IMG/VR virus record: IMGVR_UViG_3300017776_000191
Location: 1 to 23,681 of that record
Length of the DNA stretch: 23,681 bases
Origin: a virus
Strand: one strand, 5' to 3'
Shown here: positions 1,003-21,001 of the stretch, in pieces
How positions within the stretch are numbered: the stretch's first letter is position 1
Layout of the letters: each line of letters begins with the position of its first letter
Program-made: the position numbers and the translations under genes
Notes under the pieces: generated by a model
What the model saw: the letters and a program-made list of their open reading frames with translations, nothing else
The model's database searches: none
Told to the model about the DNA's origin: nothing

Positions 1003-1473
1003 ATGAAAATGTTTTTTACATTTTTTTCTATTTGGGCTTTGTGCGTTTTCATTACTTTTGGGTTTATTGTTCCAAAAGTTAATGCAGATCAAATGGTGCA
1101 TAAATTCAAAAATCCTAGTTTTTCGGGAAATAATACTAGCTCTCATTATTTAACTATTGAAAATCAAGAGTTCAATAGAAAAGAAAATGTCAGAGAAGAG
1201 ATAAAAGCATATCAAGAAGAACTAGCAAGGGAAGCGGACAATACTACTTTGGCTAGATTCATTCGTAATCTGGAATCAAGAATATATGCACAACTCTCCA
1301 GGCAATTAGTTGAAAACTTATTTGGTGAAAATCAATCTGAGTTTGGAACATTAGAGCTGGAAGGCAACACCATAGAATACGAAGTAGAAGACGACAAAAT
1401 AACATTAACAATCACAGATGAAAATGGAGAAACCACAACTATTACTGTTCCTACTGGTTCTTTTACTTTCTAG
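1003..1473 (+). CDS. csgF: CsgF-like curli assembly factor
   Basis: 156 residues, somewhat longer than E. coli CsgF (138). Residues 1-29 form a Sec signal peptide with a long hydrophobic core and a VNA-DQ cleavage site. The mature N-terminus, with the HKFKNPSFSGNN motif, matches the CsgF signature (FQFRNPNFGGNP in E. coli), the region known to insert into the CsgG pore. The C-terminal half has the family's ending, alternating ITLTITDENGETTTITVP. In curli biogenesis CsgF is secreted and caps the CsgG channel at the cell surface. The gene lies 1 nt after the holin-like gene and its last 56 nt overlap csgG. The F-then-G order is the same as in the E. coli csgDEFG operon. The Shine-Dalgarno is weak. 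Confidence 0.85.
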   Translation: MKMFFTFFSIWALCVFITFGFIVPKVNADQMVHKFKNPSFSGNNTSSHYLTIENQEFNRKENVREEIKAYQEELAREADNTTLARFIRNLESRIYAQLSRQLVENLFGENQSEFGTLELEGNTIEYEVEDDKITLTITDENGETTTITVPTGSFTF

Positions 1474-2281
1474 CTGTGCGTTAAAGAATGACGATTTGTT
1501 GAATAAAGGTGGTATACCAAACAACAAAATTACAGCTCCTAGTATTTTAGATCTCCAGTCACAAGAATTAAAAGAAGTATCTCCCCCGAAAAAAAAACCA
1601 ACAATAGCAATATACCCGTCTAGCTTCACTGATCAAACGGGACAGAGAAGAAGTAATAGTGAGTTTGCTTTATTTAGTACCGCAATTACTCAAGCTCCAC
1701 ACGCTTATTTATTAAGAGCGTTAAAGCATTCTGCTAATGGTCAATTCTGGAGAGTAATAGAACGTATAGGGCTAGACAATCTTGTAAAAGAAAGAACCTT
1801 AATACGATCTACCAGAGAAGGGTTTAAACAAAAAGAGTTGAGTCCGCTGTTATTTGCGGGGTTACTCATAGAAGGTGCTGTCGTAGATTATGACGTGAAC
1901 CAAAGAAGCGGTGGAGTTGGATTTCGCTATTTAGGCATATCCAGTAGTAACCAATACAGGGAAGATACAGTAACAATATCTTTACGCCTGATTTCGGTTT
2001 TAACTGGCGAAGTTTTGATAGAAGTCATGACAACTAAAACCATTCTATCTGTGGGTATATCTCAAGATGTTTTTAGATTTATAGAACTAGGAACAGAACT
2101 AATAGAGCTAGAAGGTGGATTTACAGAAAACGAGAGTGGTTCTATTGCATTGCAAAAAGCTATAGAAAAAAGTGTTTTAGAAATTATAAACATAGGATAC
2201 GAGAGAGGGTATTGGGAACATGAAGAAATTATTATTGAGCCTAGTTGCGATGACGAGTGCATTGCTGCTATTCGCGGCTGA
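1418..2281 (+). CDS. csgG: CsgG-like outer-membrane curli secretion channel lipoprotein
   Basis: 287 residues, close to E. coli CsgG (277). A lipoprotein signal peptide ends in the lipobox LLSS-C20. CsgG hallmarks follow in order: TIAIYPSSFTDQTGQ, LFSTAITQAPHAYLLRAL, VIERIGLDNLVKERTLIRS, then RSGGVGFRYLGI, SLRLISVLTGEVL and VFRFIELGTELIELEGGFT. In E. coli, CsgG forms a nonameric 36-strand outer-membrane pore that exports curlin subunits. The constriction loop after TGQ differs here: aligned by eye it has one extra residue, retains the Phe but lacks the Tyr and Asn. The signal-peptide codons lie inside csgF. ATG 1424 is an alternative start that leaves the lipobox unchanged. Confidence 0.92.
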   Translation: MKMEKPQLLLFLLVLLLSSCALKNDDLLNKGGIPNNKITAPSILDLQSQELKEVSPPKKKPTIAIYPSSFTDQTGQRRSNSEFALFSTAITQAPHAYLLRALKHSANGQFWRVIERIGLDNLVKERTLIRSTREGFKQKELSPLLFAGLLIEGAVVDYDVNQRSGGVGFRYLGISSSNQYREDTVTISLRLISVLTGEVLIEVMTTKTILSVGISQDVFRFIELGTELIELEGGFTENESGSIALQKAIEKSVLEIINIGYERGYWEHEEIIIEPSCDDECIAAIRG

Positions 2282-2939
2282 CAACGAAATATATATTGAT
2301 CAAAGCGGTGGTACTGCTTTGAATTTAGACATTGAACAGATCAATGGATCTGGAAACCTTATTGGTGGTGCAACAGCTGCTGCTGGTTCTATGACACCAT
2401 TAGATTTAGATGGTGCATCTATGAGCCTAGACATATTGCAAAAAGGATCTACAAATAAATTCTTAGGTGATATATGGGCTGACAGTTATACAGGTTATTT
2501 TTCTTTCCTTGGTTCAACAAATACGTTTAACATGCAAACAGACCCAACAAATACTTTTGGAGCTGATTCATCTAATGTCAATGTTCAAGTCACGGGCAGC
2601 TCAAACACAATGACACTTAATCAGGCTACTAACGCTATTGCGGCTACGTTAGATTTAGATTGGATCATACAAGGTTCAAACAACACAATAACATCATCTA
2701 TAGATGTTGATGGTGCTACTAATTACATGGACATAGATGGTTCAGACAATACGGTTACTTATGATGGTGATGGGTATGCAGGTGGTTACTTCTACTTAGA
2801 CCAGACTGGAGGATCAAGGACATTCAACATAACACAACAATCTACCTCTGATAATGATTGGCTTAAGATTACATCTGTTGGCTCTAATGGGGTCGTGTGT
2901 GTTAATCAGTCTGATGCCTCAACAAGTTTTGTGTGCTGA
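2220..2939 (+). CDS. Secreted curlin-repeat (CsgA-like) amyloid protein
   Basis: 239 residues. A signal peptide (MKKLLLSLVAMTSALLLFA) precedes a Gly/Ser/Asn/Thr/Asp-rich mature part with almost no Lys or Arg. It contains about nine spaced turns of the form G-S-x-N followed by alternating hydrophobic residues (GSGNLIG, GSTNKFL, GSTNTFN, GSSNTMT, GSNNTIT, GATNYMD, GSDNTVT), and Gln-bearing strands such as YIDQSGG, MTLNQ and FNITQQ. This is the spacing logic of curlin repeats (S-x5-Q-x-G-x-N-x-x-x-Q), though the repeats are irregular and the Gln ladder is incomplete. Two Cys near the C-terminus are unusual for CsgA. It overlaps csgG by 62 nt and is the obvious candidate cargo for that pore. A GAGAGAGGG tract lies upstream of the start. 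Not csgA by close identity, so no symbol is given. Confidence 0.75.
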   Translation: MKKLLLSLVAMTSALLLFAADNEIYIDQSGGTALNLDIEQINGSGNLIGGATAAAGSMTPLDLDGASMSLDILQKGSTNKFLGDIWADSYTGYFSFLGSTNTFNMQTDPTNTFGADSSNVNVQVTGSSNTMTLNQATNAIAATLDLDWIIQGSNNTITSSIDVDGATNYMDIDGSDNTVTYDGDGYAGGYFYLDQTGGSRTFNITQQSTSDNDWLKITSVGSNGVVCVNQSDASTSFVC

Positions 2940-3966
2940 TTCCATAGGATCAGTTACAGAACTTAACGGCACAGCACAGGTTTTAAGAGATAAACCCTAC
3001 GGAGCTGAACTAGACTTTGGAATACTGAGTTATGACAAAGTAGAAACGGCTGATGGGCGAATGGGGATTACGTTTATTGATGAAACTCAAATAAAGCTAA
3101 CGGAAAACTCGCGAGTATTGATTGATGAGTTTATTTTTGATCCTGATCCAAATAAATCAAAGATGGCTTTAACTTTTGCTAAAGGTACTGCACGTTTTGT
3201 TACTGGCAGACTTAATAAAGTAGCAAAAAAAAATATTAAGATAAGAACGAATACTGCAACAATAGGTATAAGAGGAACAGACTTTACAATAACCGTAGAT
3301 GAGCTTGGACGCTCTTTGATTATTCTTTTGCCAGACAAACTTGGTTTATCAAGTGGTGAAATTGAAGTGTCTACTGGCATGGGAACAGTTGTTTTAAATA
3401 AACCATTCCAGGCTACAACAGTTTCTGCTTTTGAGAATATGCCATCTAATCCAGTCATACTTGATCTAACATTAGATCTTATTGACAACATGCTTATTGT
3501 TTCTGAGCCTAAGGAGGAAAAAGAACAGGTTAAAGAAACAGAGTCTTCATCGACAAATGTATTTTTAGATTTCAATGAGTTAGATGTTGATTATCTAGCC
3601 GAAGATGCACTAGATGATAATGAGCTTGAGTTTACAGAGCTAGATATAGATTTATTACAAGTAAATTTTCTAGAAGATATGTTAAACGTACTTGATGCTT
3701 TAGCCGTAAAAAAAGAGGAAGATCAGTTAGGACTAGCTACTGGTATTAAAATAGTTGGTACTGAGATTGGACAAGATAAAGACACACAGATTACAACGCT
3801 AATACAAGGTCAAAATATAAGTATTAGACGTAACGTAGGTAATTCTCTTATATTAGATTTAGATGGATCGTCTGGCTACACCTTGATACTTACACAAAAC
3901 GGAGTAACTAAAGTTGTGACTATCAATGGTGGTGGAACAAATACAATCAATGTTACTCAACAATGA
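2854..3966 (+). CDS. Secreted FecR-domain protein with curlin-like C-terminus
   Basis: 370 residues as drawn. A signal peptide probably ends at QVLCA-DS. Residues about 30-180 match a FecR domain: GSVTELNGTAQVLR, DKVETADGRMGITFIDET, LTFAKGTARFVTGR and TATIGIRGTDFTI. A Glu/Asp-rich central segment (about 215-290) with repeated ELDVD/ELDID-type units follows. The last about 60 residues are curlin-like, ending in GGGTNTINVTQQ, close to the SRTFNITQQ stretch of the upstream curlin protein. FecR domains are periplasmic or surface folds best known from iron signalling; no sigma factor or TonB receptor is present here, so signalling is unlikely. The start lies 86 nt inside the curlin gene; ATG 2887 is an alternative. 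It may be a fibre nucleator, anchor or adhesin (inference). Confidence 0.75.
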   Translation: MIGLRLHLLALMGSCVLISLMPQQVLCADSIGSVTELNGTAQVLRDKPYGAELDFGILSYDKVETADGRMGITFIDETQIKLTENSRVLIDEFIFDPDPNKSKMALTFAKGTARFVTGRLNKVAKKNIKIRTNTATIGIRGTDFTITVDELGRSLIILLPDKLGLSSGEIEVSTGMGTVVLNKPFQATTVSAFENMPSNPVILDLTLDLIDNMLIVSEPKEEKEQVKETESSSTNVFLDFNELDVDYLAEDALDDNELEFTELDIDLLQVNFLEDMLNVLDALAVKKEEDQLGLATGIKIVGTEIGQDKDTQITTLIQGQNISIRRNVGNSLILDLDGSSGYTLILTQNGVTKVVTINGGGTNTINVTQQ

Positions 3967-4251: not shown

Positions 4252-4504
4252 TATACCACTTTGTATACCACTTTTATGCGCGCTAAAACGGTCTTAATCT
4301 GTTTAAACTTTCTTAATCGTTAAAACGGGATTTGGCTTAAAAGCCTTTAAATTAAAGGAAAACCAGCTGGGAGAGGTGGTAGACACGAGTGGACTTGAAC
4401 CACCGACCCCCACCATGTCAAGGTTACAGTCTTAAACTAACAATACCCGTTGCAGCTACGTTTCAGAGTAACAACTTTGCTGGTATACCACTATTTATAC
4501 CACT
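4251..4504. other. Phage attachment region (attP-like) with arm-type repeats
   Basis: This 254-nt gap holds no convincing gene. It contains a tRNA-derived core (4377-4424) flanked by two pairs of a 10-nt direct repeat, GTATACCACT: 4251-4260 and 4263-4272 on the left, 4483-4492 and 4495-4504 (first base changed) on the right. In each pair the copies start 12 nt apart. This geometry is what is expected of integrase arm-type sites around a core. Between the left arms and the core lie duplicated TAAAACGG and CTTAATC words and two short inverted repeats (GGCTTAAAAGCC at 4334-4345, CCTTTAAATTAAAGG at 4344-4358), possible sites for accessory factors. The right-hand arm pair ends where the integrase stop begins. 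Confidence 0.7.
4377..4424 (-). other. att core: 3' half of a tRNA-Val(GAC) gene
   Basis: Read on the minus strand, this is the 3' part of a tRNA: anticodon loop TTGACAT (anticodon GAC), stem GGTGG, variable loop GGGTC, T-arm GGTGG-TTCAAGT-CCACT, acceptor strand CGTGTCT, then A and CCA. Upstream of the anticodon loop the match fails (TAACC instead of the expected CCACC), and no D-arm or 5' acceptor strand follows, so it is not a whole tRNA gene. Phages that integrate into tRNA genes carry exactly such a 3' segment to restore the gene. It lies next to the integrase, so it is probably the core of attP, or a prophage end. Confidence 0.7.
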
Positions 4505-7256: not shown

Positions 7257-8204
7257 CTATTTTCTTGGTGGTGAAAAAGTGATTGACTCACTCGCTTTGT
7301 TTTTAAACTTATCCAGTTTCACGTCATCGTTTTTTAACAGCGCATTGATTTGAAACTCATAAGTATCAAAAATCTTTTTATAATTTATACTTCCTACTTT
7401 TTTAATTATGTTAAGTCTGTAGCCTTGTGGATTAACTAATCCGTTATACGCTGAAGTTTCTAACTTCTCTTTGCTTAACTCTTCTTTAAGGAACTTAAAC
7501 TCTTGATCTAATTCTTTTTTGGTTTCAGATATTTCTACTAATCTCTCAAACCTATCATCCTCAATGGTTAAATTCTTTTCGTCTCCATACTCAGCTCTTA
7601 ATACAGGGTCTTTAATAATCGAACTGTATTCGTCCATGAATGCTTTGAGCTTAGGCAAGTGGGCTTTCCAGAACTCTTGATCTCTTTGCACTCTAAGAAT
7701 CCTTATATCCCCTTCTACCCACTCAACATAATCACAATAATCTAAATCACAGACTTCCATAAAATGTTGAACCTGACCAAAGTAGTTTGGCTTTTTTTTG
7801 TTTAGATCTATATCACCAGTTTCATTTAGGGTAAATTTCATAGGACATTTTATTTCCAACCCTATCCTGTTACCTTCTTGATCTACTGTAATTCCATCAG
7901 GGCTAACGCCTATCCAGTCATATTCATCGTGTAGTTGAAAAAACTCTGAGTCTTCTTCTAGGGCATAACTGGTCTGATCTAAATATTCCAACCTTGCAAC
8001 AGGCTCATAAGTTGTTCCTCTTTCTGTGTGAAAGTTAGGAACAAACTCTGAAGGTGCGCCTATAAACTCTCTAACCATTTCACGATAAACTTCAGAAGGT
8101 CTATTGGAATTTATTTTTCCAGACCTAGTTCCAGTCATCATACCTATTCTCTGGTCAAGCCATTCTTGTGAACCCTGTTCAAACTTTTCTAATACTCTAC
8201 TCAT
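7257..8204 (-). CDS. YqaJ-type (lambda Exo-like) recombination exonuclease
   Basis: 315 residues. The N-terminus shows the YqaJ signature QGSQEWLDQRIGMMTGTRSGK; then Glu67 (TTYEPVAR), Asp103 (GVSPDG) and Glu117-x-Lys119 (GLEIKCP) form the PD-(D/E)XK active site. In this family the enzyme degrades one strand from double-stranded ends to give ssDNA for an annealing protein. The C-terminal 100 residues are a charged helical extension. It overlaps the ERF gene by 4 nt (ATGA), the usual two-component exonuclease/annealase pairing, and is followed by ssb. Confidence 0.88.
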   Translation of the reverse strand: MSRVLEKFEQGSQEWLDQRIGMMTGTRSGKINSNRPSEVYREMVREFIGAPSEFVPNFHTERGTTYEPVARLEYLDQTSYALEEDSEFFQLHDEYDWIGVSPDGITVDQEGNRIGLEIKCPMKFTLNETGDIDLNKKKPNYFGQVQHFMEVCDLDYCDYVEWVEGDIRILRVQRDQEFWKAHLPKLKAFMDEYSSIIKDPVLRAEYGDEKNLTIEDDRFERLVEISETKKELDQEFKFLKEELSKEKLETSAYNGLVNPQGYRLNIIKKVGSINYKKIFDTYEFQINALLKNDDVKLDKFKNKASESITFSPPRK

Positions 8205-8920
8205 GCTTGAGCCTCAAAACTTTTATCCATTGCTTCTTTTATATTTACAAGCAACAAAGAGTGATTTTTCCAGCCATCTATTTTTTTTATAGCCATGCGA
8301 GCTTTTTCTGCTTTATCAGGGGTAGACTCAAATACCAATTTAATAATTGGTTTCTGTAGAGCAGAAGGTACTTTATCTAACTCTCTTATATTCAAATCGG
8401 GTAAATGATCTATAACATCTGTGTACCAATCTATTACAGGTGTTTTGCCATTAGATTTTTTTGTTGTCTGCGCTTTAACATAATCTGCCTGTAATGCTTC
8501 TGCATCATCATCATCTGCGCCTATACCGCATGCAGTAGATAAAGAATATCTTCTAGCATAGGTCAGCGCTGCACCAAATTTTTGTGGCGATAAATTTTCT
8601 GCGGGTATAAAAAACCAACCTGTATGCAGTTCAGAATCATGTCCATAAAATGATGTTTGTATCATTACACCTTTGTCGTGTGGACGTTGATGTTGAAAAT
8701 ACATTATGCCTTCCTTACAAAAAGCTTCTTTTACAGCTGTAATTACTGACACCACAGAAGCATAGCCTCCATACTGCCCTTTCTGATCTTCTCTTGCGTG
8801 TGCAATATTAAGTTGTGCCTTACACCACGCTTTAACAAATTCATTTGTCAAAGGCGCATATTGCACATCTACGGGATTGTTAATTGGTTCTTGGGTTTCT
8901 TGTTGTCTTAAATTTTCCAT
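8201..8920 (-). CDS. erf: ERF-superfamily single-strand annealing protein
   Basis: 239 residues. The ERF core lies at about residues 30-145: AHAREDQKGQYGGYASVVSV, ITAVKEAFCKEGIMYFQH, then the FGAALTYARRYSLSTACGI motif followed by ADDDDAEA, typical of ERF proteins (P22 Erf family). ERF proteins form rings that anneal complementary ssDNA during phage recombination and circularisation. The remaining C-terminus is variable. It is the first gene of the minus-strand recombination operon and is coupled to the exonuclease by an ATGA overlap; an AGGAAAT tract precedes the ATG. Confidence 0.9.
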   Translation of the reverse strand: MENLRQQETQEPINNPVDVQYAPLTNEFVKAWCKAQLNIAHAREDQKGQYGGYASVVSVITAVKEAFCKEGIMYFQHQRPHDKGVMIQTSFYGHDSELHTGWFFIPAENLSPQKFGAALTYARRYSLSTACGIGADDDDAEALQADYVKAQTTKKSNGKTPVIDWYTDVIDHLPDLNIRELDKVPSALQKPIIKLVFESTPDKAEKARMAIKKIDGWKNHSLLLVNIKEAMDKSFEAQA

Positions 8921-15730: not shown

Positions 15731-16142
15731 ACCACGCCTCCTGTTCAATTTCATATTGGTTTTCTAAAGCCTTGGTTATTTCTGCGTCATTAAAGTTATG
15801 ACTCATCGCATCTTTCAAATTTTTAAAAATTCGGAACTCATCACAAGCTACCCTACAAGCCCGCTCAGCCGTTTCTAAGGGATAAGCAGTAAAACTTTCC
15901 TCTATTTGTTTGTCTTTCCTGTAATCACTATAAAAAGTAAATTGCCAACCCTCTGTATGACCTAATGTTAGAAAATCTTTAGCATGGCTGGAATAGTTGG
16001 GGTAGTCAGTATCAGAAATAGAAATATATTTTATCTCAGCCCCCGTTAAGTTTTTGCAAATCTGTAAAATTTCGTTTTCACTTGCGTAACCAACATCTAC
16101 ATATTCAAACTGTCTTTTAACTATTAGTTGTTTATCATTCAT
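15711..16142 (-). CDS. Unrecognised accessory protein
   Basis: 143 residues with a mixed alpha/beta look: QFEYVDVGYASENEILQI, AEIKYISISDTDYPNY and a helical Cys-containing segment (ETAERACRVACDEFRIF). There is a 4-nt overlap with the upstream Cys-motif gene (16139-16142). I do not recognise a family. Confidence 0.55.
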   Translation of the reverse strand: MNDKQLIVKRQFEYVDVGYASENEILQICKNLTGAEIKYISISDTDYPNYSSHAKDFLTLGHTEGWQFTFYSDYRKDKQIEESFTAYPLETAERACRVACDEFRIFKNLKDAMSHNFNDAEITKALENQYEIEQEAWYGAIRH

Positions 16143-16321
16143 ATAAATACCTTTTTAGTCTTATTAATTGTATCACTTGGCAAATTTTTTTTTGGGTTTT
16201 TTGCCCTATAAATATTATTCCTGGTGATGTCTTTGCTTGTAAGAAAACCTTTACTTGCACAAGCAAAACAAGGATAAGCTTCCTTGTATCTACCTGTTCC
16301 ATTACATATTTCACATTTCAT
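16139..16321 (-). CDS. Small protein with DnaJ-like zinc motif
   Basis: 60 residues. It begins MKCEICNGTGRYKEAYPCFACASKG: a CxxCxGxG motif followed by a second Cys-x2-Cys pair, the DnaJ-type zinc-binding arrangement, then a basic tail. Phage proteins of this kind are common and uncharacterised. Its start is supplied by a repeat-type junction (GGAGAAGAGCTAATG, one mismatch to the consensus). Confidence 0.6.
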   Translation of the reverse strand: MKCEICNGTGRYKEAYPCFACASKGFLTSKDITRNNIYRAKNPKKNLPSDTINKTKKVFI

Positions 16322-16506
16322 TAGCTCTTCTCCTGTAAATTAATTATCGATTCAAAATAAATCTCAAATTCTTTGCGATCTTTCAAACAAGGATTTCTTA
16401 TTTGTAAATATTTGCCGTTGTTTTTGATCAAAATTTCATATTCTTTCTTATTGCATTTGAATAAAAAAGTAAGATTTTTTCCTTCTTCAACTTGACGTAA
16501 ACTCAT
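16321..16506 (-). CDS. Small accessory protein ending in EKS, unknown
   Basis: 61 residues, MSLRQVEEGKNLTFLFKCNK..., beta-rich N-terminus, charged C-terminus. Both ends use the junction block: its start lies in the copy at 16504 and its last codons (Glu-Lys-Ser) in the copy at 16319. No domain known. Confidence 0.55.
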   Translation of the reverse strand: MSLRQVEEGKNLTFLFKCNKKEYEILIKNNGKYLQIRNPCLKDRKEFEIYFESIINLQEKS

Positions 16507-16706
16507 TAGCTTTTCTCCACATATTTGATTTGATACATTTCACAATATTCATCTAAACTAACATCAGCATTTTCTTTGTAATATTCTTCTTTAGAATACT
16601 CACTAACATTACAACTCTCTTCTTGTAAAAAATCCTTTAATTCTTTTTTACTTTTAAAAGTCCAACCTGTCCAATCACTACCTTGTAAATCAATAATTTC
16701 AATCAT
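16506..16706 (-). CDS. Small acidic accessory protein ending in EKS, unknown
   Basis: 66 residues, acidic (EYSKEEYYKENADVSLDEYCEMYQ) with an N-terminal IDLQGSDWTGWTFKSKKEL stretch. It is bounded on both sides by exact junction blocks; the start is at the 16704 copy. No family recognised. Confidence 0.55.
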   Translation of the reverse strand: MIEIIDLQGSDWTGWTFKSKKELKDFLQEESCNVSEYSKEEYYKENADVSLDEYCEMYQIKYVEKS

Positions 16707-16852
16707 TAGCTTTTCTCCTCAATCGTATAAAACTTTTTATCTTTACCGAACCAATTACTATCTATAAATGCTTCTGCATTATTAATATCTTCAAACTCAT
16801 CATTAAGTAAGTGTGTTCGTTTATAGTCTGTATATCTGATTACATAGTTCAT
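16706..16852 (-). CDS. Small accessory protein (48 aa) ending in EKS
   Basis: The frame from ATG 16852 to TAA at 16706-16708 reads MNYVIRYTDYKRTHLLNDEF, then EDINNAEAFIDSNWFGKDKK and TIEEKS. The beta-alpha start (MNYVIRY..., NAEAFID) resembles tiny phage proteins that hold a sheet strand followed by a helix. Bounded by exact junction blocks. Confidence 0.6.
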   Translation of the reverse strand: MNYVIRYTDYKRTHLLNDEFEDINNAEAFIDSNWFGKDKKFYTIEEKS

Positions 16853-16980
16853 TAGCTTTTCTCCTTTTGTAACTTCCATATAACAAATTTCAATAATTCT
16901 TGAGCATCTTGAATACGTCTTGTTTGTTTTTCTTCTTCTAATAAAGAATTAATATATTTTAAGTTTGATACTTCATTCAT
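16852..16980 (-). CDS. Small helical protein (42 aa) ending in EKS
   Basis: Reads MNEVSNLKYINSLLEEEKQ, then TRRIQDAQELLKFVIWKLQK and EKS. An entirely helical, coiled-coil-like product. It is bounded by exact junction blocks at 16850 and 16978, which makes it a real coding unit despite its size. Confidence 0.55.
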   Translation of the reverse strand: MNEVSNLKYINSLLEEEKQTRRIQDAQELLKFVIWKLQKEKS

Positions 16981-17159
16981 TAGCTTTTCTCCTTATAGCT
17001 TTCTTGCCAATCTCTGCAAGGTTTTTGACTTATATAGTAAAATGCACTTGTATCATATATGCGATATTCTTTGAGATTATTTATAGCTTCTTTACGAGAC
17101 TCAAATTCATCAACTGTTTCTAAGTTTCCGTCATAGTCTTTTCTTTGTATATATTTCAT
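16980..17159 (-). CDS. Small accessory protein (59 aa) ending in EKS
   Basis: Reads MKYIQRKDYDGNLETVDEF, ESRKEAINNLKEYRIYDTS and a WQESYKEKS end. The VDEFESRKEAINNLKEY stretch resembles the small 'strand-then-helix' proteins encoded beside it. Bounded by exact junction blocks at 16978 and 17157. Confidence 0.6.
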   Translation of the reverse strand: MKYIQRKDYDGNLETVDEFESRKEAINNLKEYRIYDTSAFYYISQKPCRDWQESYKEKS

Positions 17160-17257
17160 TAGCTTTTCTCCTTAACAGTTAGATCATATTCAGCCTCGGT
17201 TAGATAAGAATAAGAATTTAGAAACTGCTTTTTAGTTAATATCTTGAAGTCTCTCAT
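17159..17257 (-). CDS. Very small protein (32 aa) ending in EKS
   Basis: Reads MRDFKILTKKQFLNSYSYL then TEAEYDLTVKEKS. Its start overlaps the upstream stop (ATGA at 17254-17257) with AAAGAGAAG as a ribosome-binding site, and its end carries an exact junction block. Function unknown. Confidence 0.5.
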   Translation of the reverse strand: MRDFKILTKKQFLNSYSYLTEAEYDLTVKEKS

Positions 17258-17430
17258 CTTCTCTTTGTCGCACTCTCTACAAATTCAAAATAACTATCTT
17301 TTTCAACACTATCCCAAGTGCATAAAGGTTCATCATCTTGAGCAATAGTTTTTGCCTGTTCTTCGTTATCAGCTTCTACTATCTTGAATACTGTATAAGT
17401 GTATTCTCCTTGTACTTTGTATTTAGCCAT
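17254..17430 (-). CDS. Small accessory protein (58 aa), unknown
   Basis: Reads MAKYKVQGEYTYTVFKIVEA, then DNEEQAKTIAQDDEPLCTW and SVEKDSYFEFVESATKRR. The (K)Y.V.G.Y.YTVFKIVEADNEEQA pattern, a beta-hairpin followed by a helix, is common among small phage proteins of unknown role. AGAGGAG precedes the ATG. It overlaps the next gene downstream by 4 nt and the upstream gene by 8 nt. Confidence 0.6.
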   Translation of the reverse strand: MAKYKVQGEYTYTVFKIVEADNEEQAKTIAQDDEPLCTWDSVEKDSYFEFVESATKRR

Positions 17431-17719
17431 TGTTATTCTCCTCTACACCTTCTATACGAAACCAAATTTCATAATCTAAGGCTTCGTTTGAAAATACGAT
17501 ACAAGCATCATCAATAGATTCTGCTGGATCACCATAACTTTCAAATAGTTCTGTAAGTTGTTCTAGGTATTCTGTCTCGTTGTTTTTAACAAAATCTCCA
17601 TTCGGTTCTGTACTAGGACTTATTACGTCTAACTCCTCGTAATCATCCCAATGTCTTTTGTTAGGATCAGTTTCATCACCCTTATAAAGATGAATTGACG
17701 TTGTTACATAATATTTCAT
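17423..17719 (-). CDS. Acidic accessory protein, unknown
   Basis: 98 residues, strongly acidic (DDYEELDVISPSTEPNG, QLTELFESYGDPAESIDDAC), with a beta-strand start MKYYVTTSIHLYKGDE. The start uses the exact junction block at 17717. Acidic charge and the neighbourhood of ardA would fit a DNA-mimic or anti-defence role, but nothing specific shows this. Confidence 0.55.
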   Translation of the reverse strand: MKYYVTTSIHLYKGDETDPNKRHWDDYEELDVISPSTEPNGDFVKNNETEYLEQLTELFESYGDPAESIDDACIVFSNEALDYEIWFRIEGVEENNNG

Positions 17720-17874
17720 TAGCTTTTCTCCTTTAATTTTTTTCTAGCCTTTGATGCTTTGATCTTCCTGTCCCATAACTCTCTAGTACGAGGCTTTATA
17801 TTAGTTCCAGGATTTTCAGCATTTTGACTATCAATAATTTCATCAAAGCCCTCAATGTCTTTTAACTTACTCAT
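17719..17874 (-). CDS. Small basic protein (51 aa) ending in EKS
   Basis: Reads MSKLKDIEGFDEIIDSQNAE, NPGTNIKPRTRELWDRKI, then KASKARKKLKEKS. Very basic C-terminus. The start is in the diverged junction block (17872-17886) and the end in an exact block (17717-17731). Probably nucleic-acid binding by charge; no family known. Confidence 0.55.
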   Translation of the reverse strand: MSKLKDIEGFDEIIDSQNAENPGTNIKPRTRELWDRKIKASKARKKLKEKS

Positions 17875-18131
17875 TGGCTTTGCTCCAAATAATTCCACTC
17901 TCCAGTAATAACTTTCCTCATGTGATCTTTATTCCATTTAAAAGTTTTTAGATCGTATTCGGCATAACATTCACCATACATATCAGTTCTGTTATATAGC
18001 TCTACTTCATTAGGATATTCTTTAAACACAATAAACATATAATCACCTATACTTTTACATCTTTTAATGTCGGATTTTTCTACATCATGTCCTCTATTCC
18101 CTAGCCATTGAACTGCATCGCCTTTATTCAT
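17871..18131 (-). CDS. Accessory protein, unknown
   Basis: 86 residues, MNKGDAVQWLGNRGHDVEKS, a YMFIVFKEYPNEVELYNRTD strand pair, and a C-terminus (TGEWNYLEQSQ) whose last codons, GAG CAA AGC CAA TGA, are a diverged copy of the junction block in which the usual TAA is now CAA and the frame ends at the next TGA. It overlaps the gene downstream by 4 nt (ATGA) and is preceded by AAAGGAGTCC. Confidence 0.6.
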   Translation of the reverse strand: MNKGDAVQWLGNRGHDVEKSDIKRCKSIGDYMFIVFKEYPNEVELYNRTDMYGECYAEYDLKTFKWNKDHMRKVITGEWNYLEQSQ

Positions 18132-18277
18132 TGTCGGACTCCTTTGTTAATCCACCAAAAAGAAACAATATATTGTTCTTCCTTGCAGTCGTTACAGTAA
18201 CAATCCATTTCTTTGTTATTGTCTTTGATGAGTTCAATATCATCAGAGGTACATTCATCACATAACCATTCATTCAT
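18128..18277 (-). CDS. Small Cys-rich, probably zinc-binding protein (49 aa)
   Basis: Reads MNEWLCDECTSDDIELIKD, then NNKEMDCYCNDCKEEQYIV and SFWWINKGVRQ. Cys-x2-Cys followed about 20 residues later by Cys-x-Cys-x2-Cys suggests one zinc site. The start has GGAG at good spacing; the stop overlaps the next ATG (ATGA at 18128-18131). Its leader contains the large hairpin at 18297-18337. Confidence 0.6.
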   Translation of the reverse strand: MNEWLCDECTSDDIELIKDNNKEMDCYCNDCKEEQYIVSFWWINKGVRQ

Positions 18278-19230: not shown

Positions 19231-19292
19231 TTGACATAGACCCGCACGGGGGGGCGGGTTTCGGATATTCAATCCTCTTCAGTATGCCTTTA
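19231..19292 (-). repeat. Diverged copy of the hairpin gene-junction element
   Basis: This intergenic stretch shares CTGAAGAGGATT, AATATCCGAAAC and GTCAAAC-type flanks with the copies at 19854 and 20319, but the stem is ACCCGC...GCGGGT (19240-19259) instead of ACGCGC...GCGCGT. One base pair is flipped, G-C to C-G, with pairing kept. The loop is longer (8 nt, G-rich on the + strand). It follows the ardA stop and precedes the ribosome-binding site of the 18836-19216 gene. Confidence 0.75.
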
Positions 19293-19829: not shown

Positions 19830-19853
19830 AATATTTTTCTCCTAGTTTATTTA

Positions 19854-19910
19854 TTGACTAAGACGCGCTTGCGCGCGTTTCGGATATTAAATCCTCTTCA
19901 GTTAGCCTTA
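19854..19910 (-). repeat. 57-nt hairpin gene-junction element, copy A
   Basis: Identical over 57 nt to 20319-20375. On the minus strand it begins with the stop codon of the upstream gene, then an AGAGGATTTAATATCCG spacer and the hairpin ACGCGC-GCAA-GCGCGT (19863-19878), whose GCAA loop fits a GNRA tetraloop. It ends before the CTAGGAG of the downstream gene, ardA. Confidence 0.9.
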
Positions 19911-20303: not shown

Positions 20304-20318
20304 TTTTTTTCTCCTAGT

Positions 20319-20375
20319 TTGACTAAGACGCGCTTGCGCGCGTTTCGGATATTAAATCCTCTTCAGTTAGCCTTA
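20319..20375 (-). repeat. 57-nt hairpin gene-junction element, copy B
   Basis: Exact copy of 19854-19910: stop codon, spacer, hairpin ACGCGC-GCAA-GCGCGT (20328-20343). It then leads into CTAGGAG and the ATG of the 19908-20303 gene. The shared CTAGGAGAAAAAAAATG start block recurs before the 20373-20843 gene, whose leader holds the promoter region instead of the hairpin. Confidence 0.9.
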
Positions 20376-20843: not shown

Positions 20844-21001
20844 TTTTTTTCTCCTAGTTTTATAAAAACGATCTTATTAAGATCATTAAGACTATAACAG
20901 TATACGAATAATATCTAACACACAAGCTTTTTTTAATGTGCAGTTGTTAAATAACAAATGATATTTTCTCTCACGTCCTGAAACCCTTCTAATATCTAAC
21001 C
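20844..21001. promoter_or_regulatory. Divergent control region between accessory and packaging genes
   Basis: 158 nt without a gene. It contains GATCTTATTAAGATC (20870-20884, perfect 7-bp arms) near the accessory operon start and TTGTTA-AA-TAACAA (20944-20957) nearer the + strand genes. Both are operator-like. On the minus strand a TATACT hexamer preceded at 15 nt by TTGTGT is a possible promoter. Exact promoters cannot be fixed by eye. Confidence 0.4.

Follow-up and report, generated by a model that had tools for sequence, protein, structure and literature searches.

The window analysed here is the whole of a 23.7-kb IMG/VR virus record (IMGVR_UViG_3300017776_000191, positions 1-23,681), whose genes include an integrase, a RecE-like exonuclease, Erf, an O-like initiator, a DnaB-like helicase and an anti-restriction gene. 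Part of its minus strand is occupied by what looks like an early or accessory operon of small genes joined by a repeated block, GGAGAAAAGCTAATG, with six exact copies, one copy with one mismatch and one with two, all between 16319 and 17886. Sites with at most three mismatches to it number nine in the window against 1.3 expected, and none of 100 shuffles reached nine. The features referred to below are as follows:

7257-8204, minus strand: RecE-like exonuclease, a candidate recombination partner
8201-8920, minus strand: Erf-like ssDNA-annealing protein, a candidate recombinase
16139-16321, minus strand: right-anchor gene, 60-aa Cys-rich protein, 54-58% conserved at the amino acid level in backbone relatives
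16319-16333, minus strand: junction block with one mismatch (GGAGAAGAGCTAATG), joint between the 61-aa cassette and the 60-aa Cys-rich gene (sequence scan and backbone comparison)
16321-16506, minus strand: cassette c48, 61 aa, 95.7% DNA match in L102
16504-16518, minus strand: exact junction block (sequence scan)
16506-16706, minus strand: cassette c25, 66 aa, 96.5% DNA match in L146
16704-16718, minus strand: exact junction block (sequence scan)
16706-16852, minus strand: cassette c3, 48 aa, 97.3% DNA match in L165
16850-16864, minus strand: exact junction block (sequence scan)
16852-16980, minus strand: cassette c47, 42 aa, 97.7% DNA match in L142
16978-16992, minus strand: exact junction block (sequence scan)
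16980-17159, minus strand: cassette c1, 59 aa, 98.3% DNA match in L129
17157-17171, minus strand: exact junction block; the next gene differs among backbone relatives (sequence scan and relatives)
17159-17257, minus strand: family c6 gene, short version, with an EKS end at the block (block at gene end only)
17423-17719, minus strand: 98-aa gene (block at gene start only)
17428-17441, minus strand: second-type variant GGAGAATAACAATG; upstream gene ends ENNNG-stop (de novo search)
17717-17731, minus strand: exact junction block, after the left-anchor gene (sequence scan)
17719-17874, minus strand: left-anchor gene, family c0, with a KEKS end (family clustering, protein-found loci)
17872-17886, minus strand: diverged block with two mismatches (GGAGCAAAGCCAATG) (sequence scan)
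18129-18142, minus strand: second-type block GGAGTCCGACAATG, with the gene upstream running over the start codon to an ESDNE-stop end (de novo search)

The block is read in two frames. In one, G GAG AAA AGC TAA TG gives E-K-S-stop, the C-terminus of the upstream gene; in the other, GGAG is a Shine-Dalgarno (SD) sequence and TAATG the stop/start overlap for the downstream gene. At all exact copies the upstream frame ends EKS-stop and the next start comes from TAATG. At 17872 the upstream frame is GAG CAA AGC CAA TGA, or EQSQ-stop. This agrees with a preliminary description of the locus, which had reported six exact and two diverged copies in about 1.6 kb, the double function as Glu-Lys-Ser-stop and SD/start, and the change of stop to CAA at 17872 with read-on to TGA. 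It had also called every unit interchangeable; there is a cassette system, but only five units (42-66 aa) carry the block on both sides.

All five bracketed cassettes have full-length DNA matches in other array contigs, at 95.7-98.3% identity. No DNA match to the 98-aa gene, the Cys-rich gene, the helicase or RecE was found in the contigs matching these cassettes. Other neighbours in the window with DNA matches are the c6 gene (93.9%), a 58-aa gene (95.8%) and the anti-restriction gene (88.4%, L189); the point at which the c6 gene is shortened has no block, which counts against the explanation preferred below. Pfam and PHROGs searches for cassette functions gave nothing informative. The cassettes probably encode small accessory proteins, mostly acidic, that would serve in host takeover or counter-defence.

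The same locus was compared in three relatives found by helicase search (L219, L220 and L221), which are syntenic with the window and in part 98% identical. The 29 nt leading up to the block at 17157-17171 (with two differences in L221) and the block itself are common to all four. After it the window has c1-c47-c3-c25-c48, L219 and L220 have one 94-aa cassette, and L221 has none; all alleles then reach the same Cys-rich gene (L220 being placed by block and gene coordinates). With five, one or no cassettes at one locus, the content between blocks is evidently not constant, and it changes at the block. Searching with the flanking 143-aa gene turned up no relatives of it, though the gene is present in the relatives found by helicase. 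Elsewhere, a 4-kb stretch around the integrase is 98% identical in the window and L219, but the exonuclease and Erf proteins of the two share only 44% and 71%; the recombination module (window 7257-8920) seems to have been swapped.

A scan of IMG/VR for the exact block found at least 120 stretches, several with two to five copies, and further loci were added by protein searches with four unit families. Many single-copy matches, such as a gene pair preceding a large protein that may belong to the tail, are due to chance or unrelated; the statistics exclude them. With duplicates removed, there are at least 71 distinct IMG/VR arrays with the block and its variants. Block-to-block chaining followed by protein clustering gave at least about 81 cassette families in many orders, with a median length of 66 aa; 80% are net acidic, and the median charge is -6. 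The left anchor c0 is followed by 19 different families, and c1 has eight different neighbours upstream and seven downstream. Nearly all of the sequences compared are metagenomic fragments, and the loci were gathered partly via the block itself; those found by protein and the backbone relatives found by helicase are less biased. As a check on ascertainment, in loci found by protein only, the exact block follows c0 in most of 37 and stands before c1 in the majority of its close relatives, though not of its distant ones. The junction Ser codon in protein-found loci is AGC in 71 of 73, while four array contigs use AGC for 11.7% of their serines. Distant c1 relatives in other phages (L148, also L150 and L151) are joined differently, by GGAGGAAGTATGA or a sequence close to it that overlaps as ATGA, and L148 has AGGAGGAAGTATG in three copies.

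An all-against-all blastn of the array contigs gave 885 unique internal breakpoints, representing events that are not phylogenetically independent. Of these, 391 fall within 5 nt of a block, compared to a mean of 49 and a maximum of 73 in 200 random placements; with the blocks shifted by 30-90 nt, just 0-22 are nearby. Left ends of alignments pile up at block positions 0/-1/-2 and right ends at 15/16/17, which are the block edges. Breakpoints are found at 241/272 blocks and 103/111 blocks of a second type (described below), against 8/132 mid-gene points; the proportion at other gene starts (57/121, 47%) is a point on the other side. In 28 pairwise comparisons (not independent), all four inner ends are at a block, between flanks 93-100% identical, and the difference is a cassette gain/loss or replacement. 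L016 and L101, for instance, are set apart by a single cassette, with flanks 100% and 99.8% identical, and L061 and L062 by one replacement and one gain/loss. For indels, about 15 nt of the shorter allele belong to both flanks, which is the pattern left by a direct repeat. The idea that identical junctions are exchange points for small accessory genes, put forward in the preliminary description together with checks of breakpoint position and of gene content in relatives, is thus supported on both counts: breakpoints of gene gain and loss coincide with the block, and content between blocks varies strongly, in the arrays at large as in the backbone relatives. As far as aligned sequences can record such events, the connector is the exact site of cassette gain, loss and replacement, both between near-identical phages and across different ones.

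There are at least two classes of connector, a point missed in the earlier reading. The second (T2, GGAGTCCGACAATG, as opposed to T1, the block described so far) was found de novo before 58 different gene starts in the array contigs. Here the upstream gene runs through the start codon, ending E-S-D-N-E(x)-stop, and conservation extends over about 14 nt. Among pairs of junctions with the same downstream but different upstream genes (pairs not independent), 182 are T1-T1, 171 T2-T2 and only two T1-T2. In 47 pairs another start stands in place of T1, which counts against strict separation. A third set (GGAGCAAAACTAATG and similar, with EQN, EKN or EKD ends) is the prevailing type in a second array, which follows a different anchor, and it mixes with T1 to a limited extent. 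Since T1 and T2 both look usable as starts, selection on translation alone does not account for their failure to interchange; a need for homology at the point of exchange would.

The block is probably a portable connector for single-gene cassettes, one that joins a signal for translational coupling to a short stretch of putative recombination homology. It supplies E-K-S-stop to the upstream gene in one frame and an SD, spacer and start to the downstream gene in another, and because the same connector lies at both ends of a cassette, exchange inside it would always leave two intact genes with the same stop-SD-start overlap. The short homology might direct recombination by a phage single-strand annealing protein (Erf or Sak4) or host RecA, or act through direct-repeat slippage. 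Annealing or slippage between direct repeats would suffice for cassette loss; gain would take two such joints, or one joint combined with normal homologous exchange in a neighbouring gene. The block would be kept working by selection on its stop, SD and start, and kept identical by recombination and common descent; the connector classes would act as separate sockets. Against this, 15 nt is short for RecA-type recombination. On a wider scale, the balance tips slightly toward a pool of cassettes shared among phage backbones through at least two incompatible 14-15-nt sockets (GGAGAAAAGCTAATG and relatives; GGAGTCCGACAATG), homology-directed and integron-like but with no integron recombinase.

The breakpoints at 57 of 121 other gene starts in the arrays could also reflect illegitimate recombination anywhere, followed by selection for a good stop, SD and start, with the block conserved for translation only. 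This is the process favoured for most phage mosaic boundaries (PMC3029335), but it is unlikely here: synonymous positions are nearly fixed (AGC in 71/73), two apparently serviceable connectors hardly ever swap (two mixed pairs against 182 and 171), the indels carry a 15-nt direct repeat, and alignment ends recur at the block edges. Those sharp 15-nt limits, along with head-to-tail directional cassettes and an anchor gene at one end, would suit a dedicated site-specific recombinase recognising the block, as in an integron. Such an enzyme is quite improbable, given that the block has no dyad symmetry beyond AGCT, that its alleles vary, and that a tyrosine-recombinase domain occurs in only one of 20 array records.

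Two further readings have still less in their favour than a dedicated recombinase. If one gene and its junction had been duplicated in tandem and then diverged, differences in order would be due to differential loss; some arrays do contain a family in duplicate (c3 in L164), and unequal recombination at blocks would duplicate cassettes. About 81 families have no detectable similarity, however, and cassettes 95-98% identical have different neighbours and occur in other phages, which already contradicts this history and makes it very hard to sustain. It is similarly far-fetched that the junctions are assembly chimeras formed at a repeated 15-mer. Most of the sequences are indeed metagenomic contigs, but assemblers use k of at least 21, longer than the repeat, and the junctions turn up again in contigs from separate data sets (L219/L220; L085/L169/L183; L021/L062).

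The backbones of the array contigs differ: G006/G007 have a primase, a Sak4-like annealing protein and exonuclease VIII; G008 has a DNA polymerase and thymidylate synthase, with structural proteins 33-73% identical to those of G007; G001 has a primase, a helicase and a methyltransferase; and the window has Erf, RecE and DnaB. By the criteria used, the window has no protein in common with G001 and two small ones in common with G007, to which the partly overlapping G006 adds curli genes. ERF was found in one of 26 array records and YqaJ in one of 20, the window in both cases, and Sak4 in four of 20, with no recombinase found in several, all of these records being fragments. The tyrosine recombinase domain (PF00589) in one of 20, where records may again be fragments, is the window's phage integrase, outside the array. 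Erf was rejected as a common recombinase on the basis of its occurrence in the window only among 26 records. The preliminary description went too far in naming the phage's ERF/exonuclease pair as agent, as the pair is not shared by the other array records searched and several relatives have a Sak4-like protein instead. Single-strand annealing proteins reportedly can recombine divergent DNA and play a part in phage mosaicism (PMC5499656), which makes them good candidates as a group, though no single one was found in all records.

Neither cassette c1, nor anchor c0, nor the array DNA matched anything in INPHARED, which therefore yielded no cultivated host system, and no relative of c1 or c0 turned up among the GTDB genome contigs scanned. 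Isolates with backbones related to that of G007 are Pelagibacter phages HTVC027P and HTVC023P, phage 023Pt_psg01 and DSL-LC04 (terminase 58-61%, capsid 67-71%). An array of repeated junction blocks is absent from the stretches examined of these isolates; the block therefore does not characterise the G007 lineage as a whole. The phages are apparently marine, as the closest relatives of this backbone include seawater isolates. The window also has a curli-type gene set (1003-3966, plus strand) encoding CsgF, CsgG, a curlin-repeat-like protein and a FecR-domain protein; the set is found in G006 as well, and FecR relatives occur in Pelagibacter phage HTVC008M and Methylophilales phages.

The nearest known systems are lambdoid boundary sequences, start-associated sequences and the Island3 repeat. 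Boundary (linker) sequences are short, conserved and located at gene boundaries, and have been proposed as a substrate for general recombination that shuffles modules (PMC3029335). The preliminary description's likening of the block to them is apt: in both, a short conserved sequence lies at module boundaries and breakpoints coincide with it. Here, however, one block repeats head-to-tail between many small genes per genome and codes for both neighbours, and breakpoints map to the base. The start-associated sequences (SAS) of cluster K mycobacteriophages are 13-bp SD-containing repeats before many non-structural genes of different families, conserved beyond the needs of SD pairing and treated as a translational or regulatory element (PMC3203893). 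The present block is likewise an SD-containing repeat at the starts of unrelated small non-structural genes, but its consensus, GGAGAAAAGCTAATG, differs from that of SAS (GGGATAGGAGCCC, 3-7 bp before the start) and includes the stop and start. In the portion of that report available, SAS are not described as exchange points for cassettes, nor as a fixed stop-SD-start fusion with a constant C-terminus. In Island3, the C-terminal end of an inserted gene repeats that of the gene upstream (67/68), explained by recombination at the repeat (PMC3029335); this is a single case of 18 residues, while the block is a 3-residue, 15-nt junction used repeatedly. Integrons also have a pool of single-gene cassettes in the same orientation and variable order, with an anchor at one end. 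They differ in that no attC-like inverted repeat is found here, sequence adjoining the block is not conserved, 19 of 20 array records (which may be fragments) lack a tyrosine recombinase, and the cassettes are fused through coding sequence.

A search of the open-access literature for junction-directed cassettes or short homologies at phage gene boundaries found no account of a system like this one. Whether phage mosaicism is due to boundary sequences or to random illegitimate recombination and selection has long been argued, and the argument has persisted because boundary sequences are absent at most boundaries. The array is an unusually clear case of the boundary-sequence kind, as its connector is repeated, is part of the coding sequence of both neighbours and exists as at least two types that do not interchange. 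With an identical connector at most array junctions, and empty, one- and five-cassette alleles in one type of phage, the question becomes directly testable. The connector also offers a way to retrieve small accessory phage genes, probably for takeover or counter-defence, from metagenomes by sequence, and its dual-frame design resembles a ready-made part for operon assembly.

Other elements were noted in the window. Rfam HPnc0260 matches at 4262-4415 (plus strand, 67 bits), where the strongest part resembles the 3' end of a minus-strand tRNA and adjoins the integrase; the site is probably an attachment site rather than an antisense RNA. Three hammerhead-ribozyme-like motifs lie on the minus strand (20321-20372, 19856-19907 and 19233-19288), upstream of small-gene SDs, with a CUGAAGA / GAAA / GUC core and three stems in type I layout. 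The pattern is not reported by Rfam and is expected 0 times in shuffles; the third copy has compensatory changes in stems I and III, and similar motifs occur in L052, L068 and L132. A repeated start region, AAACTAGGAGAAAAA, precedes three neighbouring genes on the same strand (19834-19848, 20306-20320 and 20846-20860), and two of its three copies come right after a hammerhead-like motif.
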